This document shows, piece by piece, positions 1 to 6,480 of a stretch of 6,569 nt of DNA. The translations under genes and the position numbers were made by a program. Source of the stretch: Candidatus Argoarchaeum ethanivorans (GTDB lineage Archaea; Halobacteriota; Methanosarcinia; Methanosarcinales; EX4572-44); the NCBI GenBank assembly GCA_905067535.1, contig CAJHIR010000059.1, positions 1-6,569 on the forward strand, written 5' to 3'. Under the pieces are notes generated by a model. It had not been told where the DNA came from. It searched no databases and saw only the letters and a program-made list of their open reading frames with translations. Each line of letters opens with the position of its first letter. The first letter of the stretch is position 1.

Positions 1-1785
1 CTCGTTTACTGCTACTGCAACAGCCCAAGCAGCCTTATCATTTTCTGCAAGCTTGAACAGTAACTTCCTTACATCCTCAGGAAACTTATTGAAATTATAA
101 GCTACCGCCCATGCAACAGTCCAAGCAGCCTCATCCTTTTCTGCGAGTTTGATGAGTAATTTGCTAAAAATCTTTTCATTTATCGGTGTGGGATATCCAT
201 CTTCAGTGAGGAGATACGGTAAAGCTTCAGAATAAGAGGGATGAGAAAATCCTATATGGTTGCCACTGATGTTAATTTTATCATCCTTAAACCAGTTAAG
301 AACCCTGTCAAACTGCCAGGCACCTTCTAACTTTAATTCCCTGACCATTTCCCAATAAGTTTTCCTACTAAGATCAACTCCAAAATATTCGGAAATAAAA
401 GGGAATGACAGGAATAATATCTTGTCTTTCGTCATATTTTTTATCTCTTTTGCAAAAGCCTTTGATGTCTCTTTCGATTTCTCTTTTATTTCATTTTTCA
501 GTCTCTTTTCGTCTTCTATGTCAAACGTAGCTCTAGCAAATTCCTTTATACTCAGAGGTGTGGGCAAATTTTTTTCATCTTCTATAGCGTTAAGAACAAA
601 TTCCTTTAATTCATTATTTCCAAGCCATTTGCAGCTTTCCGCTTCAGCCCAGTTGAGAAGAATCTGTTTTCTTCTTTCATAGTCATAAGAGGCTTTCTTT
701 ATATTCAATTTCTCCTCAAACTCTTCAAGCTCTTTTGCAGATATCTTCTCTCTTTCAAACTCCTTAAAAACCTCCTCGCGCGAGGTTATTATCACATAGA
801 CATCCTCAACCTGCCTCACTGCATCTATTGTGGTTCCAATTCCCCTTTCTAAACCCTCTCTGCTCTCGTACCCTGTTTTCCCAAATGGATCCTCAAAATA
901 GATGATACGCCTGGGCTTTAATTCTGTTTTTATATCTTCTAACTTTCTTCTAACCAGAGTCCTCTCTTCTCGTTCTCCGCCCTTAATCCATCCCGGCTCG
1001 TATTCGCTATTGTAGTACTCCCGCATGAGCTTGACAGCGGTGTATGTTTTTCCGTATTCTTGAGTGCCAGTAATAAAAACGATTCTCTTTTCTTTTAACG
1101 TCCTCGCAATGTCTTCGTACTCTGATGGAGGAACATACACTTCATTGATTCTTCCATACAATTTATTACTACCTTCAGATCCTATTTTTTTCAAAAAATC
1201 AAAAATTCTGGATTTTTGCTTAATTTTCTCTAAATTTGCAACGAAAAATGTTTTGTTGCTGTACGAGATTTGTTCACAGTATTTTTTATCCAATAGGTCT
1301 AATTCATCAAAGAATGCCGGTGTAAAAAGGACAAAAGTTTCCTTTATCGTATCACCATCATTCTCCTTTTTATAGTAACTACGATATGGCTTAATAATAT
1401 CTTCTTTCAAAAATTTTATTATTTCTTTCCTGTTTTTATGAGTTACCTCAATGTCCTCATCAATTGTTTCCGTTCCTAAAGCCACCTCAAGAGGAATGAA
1501 CTTGTGATCTTTATGCGGAATCTTAATCGTTGTGAATTTCTCAACAAGTCCAAATGCTGTATGGATATCATCAACCATCAGCACGCAGTTGTCCGAGCCC
1601 TCCATTTTGTCTTCAGGTCTTAGAATTCCTTTTCTCTCCATCTCTTTTATTTTCTTTTCTAAAGGATCTGACAGATAATCTTGCCTAATAATGTCTTCTT
1701 CGAATCCTGTTTTCTTCGCAAGTTTCTCAGGCAAGGCTTTAAATCCAAGAATATCCAGATAAATGATATACTTTTTTTCGTTCAT
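1..1785 (-). CDS. Cyclase-like / STAND (nSTAND3-like) P-loop NTPase with C-terminal HEAT-like repeats, partial (C-terminus beyond window)
   Basis: An open frame of 595 codons has no stop before the window's left edge, so the C-terminus is missing. An in-frame TAA at 1798-1800 and a Shine-Dalgarno sequence fix the start at 1785. Residues 1-200 resemble a divergent class III nucleotidyl cyclase: YLDILGFK around D11, then GSDNCVLM with D65, which are the two candidate metal-binding aspartates, and a later TPAFFDEL segment (155-162). Residues 215-420 form a P-loop NTPase: Walker A GTQEYGKTY (240-248, K246), Walker B IIYFEDPFG (294-302, D299) and a sensor-like IITSRE (332-337). This layout matches STAND ATPases, most like nSTAND3. 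A winged-helix-like part ends at HPSYSEAL (515-522). From about residue 544, 32-residue repeats carry LAExDxAAW. By family analogy, the repeats would sense a ligand, the NTPase would switch, and the N-terminal domain would act or bind nucleotide. Catalysis is unproven. Gene content to the left is unknown. The gene is more AT-rich than its neighbours. Confidence 0.72.
   Translation of the reverse strand, partial: MNEKKYIIYLDILGFKALPEKLAKKTGFEEDIIRQDYLSDPLEKKIKEMERKGILRPEDKMEGSDNCVLMVDDIHTAFGLVEKFTTIKIPHKDHKFIPLEVALGTETIDEDIEVTHKNRKEIIKFLKEDIIKPYRSYYKKENDGDTIKETFVLFTPAFFDELDLLDKKYCEQISYSNKTFFVANLEKIKQKSRIFDFLKKIGSEGSNKLYGRINEVYVPPSEYEDIARTLKEKRIVFITGTQEYGKTYTAVKLMREYYNSEYEPGWIKGGEREERTLVRRKLEDIKTELKPRRIIYFEDPFGKTGYESREGLERGIGTTIDAVRQVEDVYVIITSREEVFKEFEREKISAKELEEFEEKLNIKKASYDYERRKQILLNWAEAESCKWLGNNELKEFVLNAIEDEKNLPTPLSIKEFARATFDIEDEKRLKNEIKEKSKETSKAFAKEIKNMTKDKILFLSFPFISEYFGVDLSRKTYWEMVRELKLEGAWQFDRVLNWFKDDKINISGNHIGFSHPSYSEALPYLLTEDGYPTPINEKIFSKLLIKLAEKDEAAWTVAWAVAYNFNKFPEDVRKLLFKLAENDKAAWAVAVAVNE
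17..154 (-). repeat. Tandem 96-bp coding repeat (32-residue HEAT-like units)
   Basis: The stretch at 17-58 recurs at 113-154 with 35 of 42 bases identical, an exact 96-bp period. In the protein the units are LIKLAEKDEAAW (544-555) and LFKLAENDKAAW (576-587), with the conserved tryptophans W555 and W587 exactly 32 residues apart. The length and the L-LA-D-AA pattern suggest paired helices of the HEAT/Armadillo kind. The array continues past the left edge, so the number of units is unknown. Confidence 0.8.
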
Positions 1786-6255: not shown

Positions 6256-6480
6256 TCACCCCCATGAAATGAATTCATCGTTTCTTTTATCCTTCCAAGC
6301 CTCATCAGCATCTTTGATATTTTTCATAGCATCCTCATTTCCCAAAATCTCCAGTGTTTCATCCTGCTCTTCTCACTCTGCAAGGTATTCAACAAAATCA
6401 AGTGCTGATTTTAATTTGCTTTTAGATAGCGTCTCTATCTTCTCTATCGCCTCCTTTCGATATTCGATTATGCTATTCAT
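6256..6480 (-). pseudogene. Decayed RelB-like antitoxin gene with in-frame stop
   Basis: The frame begins MNSIIEYRKEAIEKIETLSKS and continues through LKSALDFVEYLAE. A TGA at codon 36 (6373-6375) interrupts it, but similarity resumes in the same frame with EEQDETLEILGNEDAMKNIK, DADEAWKD and EFISWG before a second TGA at codon 75. The helix-rich pattern, with KLKSALDFVEYL followed by an acidic EILGNEDAMKNIKDADEAW, is typical of small archaeal and bacterial antitoxins paired with RelE/ParE toxins. Intact members run to about 85-90 residues. No toxin frame follows: only 50 bases separate it from truD. TGA is the normal stop in truD, and nothing suggests selenocysteine. A substitution in an antitoxin orphaned by toxin loss is the simplest reading. 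The family assignment is from memory and moderate. Confidence 0.55.

Follow-up and report, generated by a model that had tools for sequence, protein, structure and literature searches.

In Pycsar systems PycC, which has the class III cyclase fold, pairs with an adjacent cNMP-gated effector. Class III cyclases act as dimers and require a transition-state Asn and Arg, found in helix 4. ADCY10 and bacterial cyclase-ATPase-TPR proteins carry a cyclase, a STAND-type ATPase and helical repeats in one chain and have physiological roles; we know of no hypervariable repeat array in either. The combination of nSTAND3, SIR2 and repeats is described as Avs5, or AVAST type 5 (PMC12931631). Fungal NLRs are reported to follow an effector-NTPase-repeat order with combinatorial effectors, PNP_UDP among them, and to contain highly similar repeats in which a few positions are under diversifying selection (PMC4986451). 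In prokaryotic conflict systems, cNMP cyclase domains are described as fused to VMAP or vWA, as infrequently linked with iSTAND2, and as signal generators that alternate with trypsin, TIR and nucleoside phosphorylase (PMC7159879, PMC8195603).

The locus that we compare with these systems lies in a stretch of 6,569 nucleotides from Candidatus Argoarchaeum ethanivorans (contig CAJHIR010000059.1, the window below), whose features are collected in Table 1. As in Avs5, an N-terminal domain resembling an enzyme precedes nSTAND3 and helical repeats follow it at the C-terminus, and EfAvs5 is the Foldseek match of rank 2 for the model of P0001, a full-length relative of the encoded protein. The two differ in that Avs5 has SIR2 whereas the protein here has a cyclase-like domain and HEAT-like units that resemble one another and are hypervariable at fixed sites; the window protein has no Pfam match to SIR2 and shows a cyclase fold instead. 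The domain order, the combinatorial effectors and the few diversifying repeat positions resemble those of the fungal NLRs of high internal conservation as PMC4986451 presents them. The fungal proteins use WD40, ANK or TPR repeats, whereas ours are HEAT-like, mostly archaeal and carry a cyclase-like effector, and most of our arrays are less uniform (mean within-array unit identity 0.63 over 56 arrays) than the criterion given there of units more than 85% identical over at least 100 amino acids. The MoxR-vWA ternary systems, as described in the papers on conflict systems, are multi-gene, while here one polypeptide also holds nSTAND3 and a repeat array. In titles, abstract openings and texts that included few subscription journals, we found no published description of a cyclase-like domain joined to nSTAND3 and a hypervariable HEAT-like array. 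The Avs/NLR-like architecture is present in full, with a central STAND NTPase between an N-terminal domain and C-terminal repeats that presumably act as effector and sensor. We propose, at slightly better than an even chance, a one-protein NLR/Avs-like receptor in which the repeats would sense a trigger, nSTAND3 would oligomerise and the paired cyclase-like domains would act on NTP, leading to defence or dormancy.

Table 1. Features of the window, with positions counted from its first letter
Feature	Position	Strand	Basis
Putative receptor gene (cyclase-like / nSTAND3 / repeats), first 595 codons	1..1785	-	Open frame, Pfam, full-length syntenic relative P0001 in L001
Class III cyclase-like domain, residues 1-187	1225..1785	-
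D11, first candidate metal aspartate, DILGF motif	1753..1755	-	D in 152/155 rows; exceptions E, E, N
R34, near-invariant basic residue, candidate phosphate contact	1684..1686	-	R in 154/157 rows
D65, second candidate metal aspartate	1591..1593	-	D in 155/158 rows; exceptions N, H, E
K127, conserved basic residue, end of helix 120-128, putative functional role	1405..1407	-	K in 148/163 rows
nSTAND3 NTPase, residues 217-378, Walker A K246 and Walker B D299	652..1137	-	Pfam PF20720 E 5.8e-21
Helical part of STAND core, residues 379-540	166..651	-
Start of 32/33-residue HEAT-like repeat array	1..165	-	Sequence; full array in P0001
nadA, housekeeping neighbour, syntenic with L001	2104..3015	+	Pfam NadA E 1.3e-118; L001 order

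An ATG at position 1785 of the minus strand opens a single frame that leaves the window at its left edge, with the 3' end of the gene outside. The original prediction had placed a cyclase-like domain, a P-loop ATPase and C-terminal repeats in this one frame; all three are found there, with D11, D65, K246 (1048-1050) and D299 (889-891) at the positions it named. P0001 (810 residues, 90% identical) is encoded in L001, also from Ca. Argoarchaeum ethanivorans, where nadA and a GHMP-family gene follow in the same order and the gap to nadA is likewise 318 bases. Compared with L001, the window gene has a pN/pS of 0.43 over residues 1-215, 0.16 over 216-380 and 0.35 over 381-545, and 0.64 at the start of the array, while the neighbours have 0.13 (nadA) and 0.08 (the GHMP gene). 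The first 545 codons are under purifying selection, and the gene is maintained, yet changing faster than these two neighbours. Because it is syntenic with L001 and under purifying selection across those codons, the gene is not a chance reading frame. Rfam and tRNA scans of the window gave no match. Elsewhere in the window, a small frame of 74 codons (6259-6480, minus strand), which by eye we take to resemble a short antitoxin-type protein, has one in-frame stop at codon 36 and appears broken.

The ATPase is recovered by Pfam as nSTAND3. Its Walker A (GTQEYGKT) and Walker B (IIYFEDPFG) are intact, with K246 and E298-D299 conserved in the alignments of listed homologues. Where PADLOC matches a scanned protein of the cyclase type, the match is to the ATPase part, with a TIR match in addition in P0059; the protein of G141 has no PADLOC match.

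The cyclase fold that had been predicted for the N-terminal domain, and whose absence from a structure model had been named as grounds for abandoning the idea, is recovered: the model and Foldseek give a cyclase-homology fold, with the PycC structure 7r65 among the matches. In the model D11 lies within strand 2-12 and D65 immediately ahead of strand 66-71, and both are candidates for binding metal. Against our reading, the window protein has no match among cyclase family models, and a PDB sequence search with residues 1-225 gives none at E up to 10. Eight class III cyclases of archaea, taken from the G genomes, align with the domain profile locally and weakly (probability 7%, E 0.0048), and the canonical Asn/Arg pair is recognised neither among the conserved positions nor in this alignment. 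The domain could be a divergent active enzyme, a non-cyclising NTP enzyme or a nucleotide-binding domain. A member of an hsd cluster (L047:7702-11730, plus strand) has two cyclase-like profile matches, at model positions 2-77 and 26-239; the second stretch is without strand 1, and the domain therefore appears partly duplicated there.

Do the two aspartates behave as functional residues? The homologue search listed the best 120 of 406 matches. A first alignment holds 108 of these 120, those with a DILG-type motif, and a second holds 138 rows under a motif filter accepting D or E; a later profile alignment dropped the filter, and structure alignments hold 76 proteins and the window protein. Among the proteins collected from the listed matches, D11 and D65 are both kept in 150 of the 155 rows of the profile alignment that have both columns, the counts being rows rather than proteins with at least two duplicates among them (L005=P0111, L006=P0149). 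The five exceptions are P0059 (D65N), P0136 (D11N), P0137 (D11E, D65E), P0140 (D65H) and P0047 (D11E). P0059 has the usual cyclase-like, nSTAND3 and repeat order with a TIR domain at the C-terminus, and P0136, P0137 and P0140 have a PD-(D/E)xK-like stretch (motif by eye) ahead of the cyclase-like domain, for which P0136 and P0137 have no Pfam match. At least one Asp is altered in 4/4 rows with a TIR or nuclease-like domain and in 1/151 of the others. Against our reading, three proteins in which the C-terminal region is of another kind, P0042 (a GNAT-like tail by Pfam, E 1.2e-4), P0017 and P0100, retain both Asps, and P0047 has D11E with no other effector found. When the former three are counted too, the contrast becomes 4/7 against 1/148 (Fisher 7e-6, p-values here being indicative only because the rows are related). 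In a tree of 153 rows built by a quick method, with P0137 omitted by a length rule, well-supported branches force three label changes, for the TIR lineage, the nuclease lineage and P0047. Read most simply, these alignments point to a function of D11 and D65 that a protein may do without after gaining a TIR or nuclease; the number of independent events is small. Catalysis by the domain is plausible, with evolutionary support that is indirect.

The same rows bear on the alternative that survives best, in which the domain would be a non-catalytic module for nucleotide binding or assembly that gates the STAND core, while a partner elsewhere in the genome kills or signals. The missing Asn/Arg pair fits such a module. 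Three nuclease-fused relatives keep the domain despite altered Asps, and a structural role is therefore also possible; Kaur et al. 2020 (PMC7159879) report that several cNMP cyclase domains of conflict proteins have no catalytic activity. Yet the Asps hardly vary over 155 rows but are changed in the TIR and nuclease lineages, a decay unexpected in a pure binding domain, and we regard this alternative as unlikely, though deserving serious attention.

That the cyclase-like domain serves as an effector is also suggested by what replaces it. A search with the repeats only gave 167 proteins, the best 120 of which were listed and ten scanned with Pfam. Among these ten, nSTAND3 and the repeats are preceded by Trypsin_2 in P0134 and P0160 and by PNP_UDP_1 in P0157; P0164 has SIR2_2, nSTAND3 and an array matching HEAT_2. 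P0186 has the repeats with SIR2_2 and TPR and is without an nSTAND3 match, as are the proteins in which the same repeats are joined directly to CHAT (P0180, P0195) or HATPase_c (P0147, P0158). By comparison of these domain orders, the cyclase-like domain is placed in the effector slot. Between the repeats and CHAT of P0195, residues 132-208 match the methyl-coenzyme M reductase gamma subunit (E 1.2e-23), possibly an assembly artefact. Separately, nSTAND3 proteins at L048:1306-3897 (minus strand) and L017:9047-11986 (plus strand) have a carbon-nitrogen hydrolase (nitrilase-like) N-terminus, a further nSTAND3 effector, seen by a Pfam match in L017 and by eye in L048; one of the pair is on a viral contig with a PUA domain.

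We turn to the repeats, which the original prediction had taken for the sensor. The array is there and has hypervariable sites; about one and a half units fall inside the window and six anchored units are found in P0001. In 133 proteins, among the matches listed, units are most often spaced 33 residues apart (167 pairs) or 32 (161 pairs), and the most uniform arrays are those of P0010, with 11 units of mean identity 0.87, and P0103, with 10 units of mean identity 0.85. Variable positions cluster at -9, -8, -5 and -1 relative to the next N-F anchor, and by their spacing and the model helices the four are predicted to share, for the most part, one side of the second helix. The top-ranked positions are identical in the mostly cyclase-type P0001-P0133 set (524 units) and the trypsin set (75 units), and are again -9, -8, -5 and -1 in a mixed set of HATPase, CHAT, PNP, SIR2 and others (66 units). 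PDB sequence matches of the repeats (8vd6, 'CAP REPEAT') were set aside, since we judged them to reflect helical repeat composition.

At the variable codons, pN/pS is 6.1 in L001 against 0.9 at the other codons, 3.2 against 0.34 in L002, 2.8 against 1.2 in L022 and 1.6 against 0.4 in L005. More diverged arrays give 1.3 against 0.8 (L019), 0.92 against 0.5 (L006), 0.94 against 0.8 (L047) and 0.61 against 0.8 (L020); L004 has no usable repeat units. With all arrays pooled the values are 1.2 and 0.67. Against our reading, the selection signal is absent from the more diverged L006, L020 and L047. When L001, L002, L022 and L005 are pooled, a choice made after the per-array values were known, a pN this high is reached by 3 of 12650 possible four-position sets, and the same four-position spacing, when shifted, gives a pN of 0.09-0.37 against 0.48 at the true positions. 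Because pairs within an array are non-independent and P0001 helped to define the positions, these figures are suggestive rather than a formal selection test. What they suggest is a diversifying signal at the four positions, in the least-diverged arrays only.

The cyclase-like domain is patchy in occurrence. It is found in 7/392 genomes of the phylum sampled and 3/111 of one family, and in 2/23 and 2/350 genomes of two other phyla, the latter including one marginal fragment; true rates are lower because each sample includes genomes already known as carriers. No multi-copy expansion was seen, with one match each in G001 and G002 and two separate places in G280. A plasmid search gave no match, and viral contigs gave one distant nSTAND3 protein, matching query residues 195-559 only. 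The copy of Methanophagales AOM70-1 (L004 / G003:C1:220401-222920) is broken into several frames and is therefore a pseudogene or an assembly error. L002 and L006 sit in metagenome bins named as Dehalococcoidia.

The expected defence-island setting holds for part of the family. We count 11 distinct loci, with L007 and L049 on the same contig and the fragmentary G172, G466 and G541 outside the count; defence genes abut the gene at four (G141, G381, G434, L002). At the G141 locus cas1 and cas2 score above their cut-offs; it also has RAMP-like and CARF matches, which score below, a gene that by eye is Cas10-like, and a CRISPR array with at least 65 copies. G381 has Cmr4, Cmr1 and Csx11, each above cut-off, the last of which we take to be the III-C Cas10. 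At G434 the order is hsdM-hsdS-X-hsdR with our gene as X (hsdM and hsdR above cut-off, hsdS-like below), and, as a measure of background, the single HSDR_N match in the 4.3 Mb of G434 is at this very locus. In L002 the gene adjoins a Type ISP RM gene. Against our reading, the other seven (L001, L022, L004, L005, L006, L021 and the short contig L007/L049) showed neither a CRISPR nor a restriction gene next door, where the neighbours of L004, L005, L006, L021 and L007/L049 were judged from the listed frames alone. L001, of the window lineage, has an hsdM-type gene about 8.6 kb off, and L022 has an adjacent HepT-like gene with HepT/MntA-type genes farther along, below cut-off.

The neighbours in the window and L001 are housekeeping genes, which also goes against our reading. 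An effector gene had been suggested to the left of the window; none turned up in the syntenic L001, where the gene is flanked by nadA and an AAA-domain gene, with an EF-Tu-like gene next, and we therefore dropped the idea of an adjacent cyclic-nucleotide receptor. None was recognised among the scanned neighbours in the window and four scanned in L001, the one full syntenic locus, where, in difference from Pycsar, no paired cNMP-responsive effector gene was recognised either. Could the protein be a physiological ATPase-cyclase comparable to mammalian soluble adenylyl cyclase, sensing a metabolite or stress instead of a virus? The housekeeping neighbours, the purifying selection in the window lineage and the single matches in two genomes are what such a protein might show; the patchy occurrence, the CRISPR and RM neighbours, the effectors swapped on one repeat family and the hypervariable repeat positions speak for the proposed receptor and make this explanation quite improbable.

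It is very improbable that the protein is an accessory of type III CRISPR that signals where Cas10's own palm is inactive, for although it is adjacent to large subunits without a GGDD-like motif in G141 (by eye) and G381, and the III-C Cas10 cyclase domain is reported as inactivated (PMC12669027), it is found at 1/17 Csx11 loci and has cas genes beside it at 2/11 of its own. A regular III-C partnership was rejected, the cyclase-like domain being absent from sixteen Csx11 regions and present only at G381; five of 22 genomes, with weak or fragmentary Csx11 matches, lie outside this survey, one surveyed locus (G023) is below cut-off, and some of the regions are truncated, L060 being 4.5 kb long. 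The large CRISPR subunits beside the gene at L020:12415-15531 and L019:4886-6919 have an N-terminal HD motif and no GGDD-like motif (L019 by eye), and a nucleotide signal is therefore not expected from them.

Returning to the proposed one-protein receptor, its steps may be pictured as follows. Recognition of a trigger, which is probably an invading element's protein, would fall to the HEAT-like array, by way of the four hypervariable and presumably exposed positions in each unit. Binding would free the nSTAND3 ATPase to form an oligomer, which would bring the N-terminal cyclase-like domains together; class III cyclases being dimeric in their working form, the active site would arise on assembly. 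Metal-NTP would be bound through D11 and D65 of the paired domains, which would either make a nucleotide signal or consume NTP, with defence or dormancy as the outcome. Judged from the genes themselves, an immune function is likely. The idea of a one-protein signalling or defence device stands in its fold, nSTAND3, hypervariable repeats and some defence neighbours, and falls short in the effector sought at the left. More tentatively, and at somewhat less than an even chance, we suggest a single-chain archaeal immune receptor that would combine recognition with second-messenger synthesis, whose repeats diversify by unit turnover at four fixed positions, whose STAND oligomer forms the cyclase only on assembly, and whose effector is swapped, on one repeat family, for proteases, SIR2, PNP or CHAT, the cyclase decaying where a TIR or nuclease takes over.

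A search for the ligand can start from the four hypervariable positions of each unit, and the altered metal Asps in proteins with a TIR or nuclease-like domain give a testable prediction of which domain acts. If the proposal is true, the Avs/NLR receptors would gain a branch whose effector is a cyclase, in uncultured archaea that oxidise methane and ethane and whose immunity is little known, and fungal receptors with diversifying repeats would have a prokaryotic counterpart.
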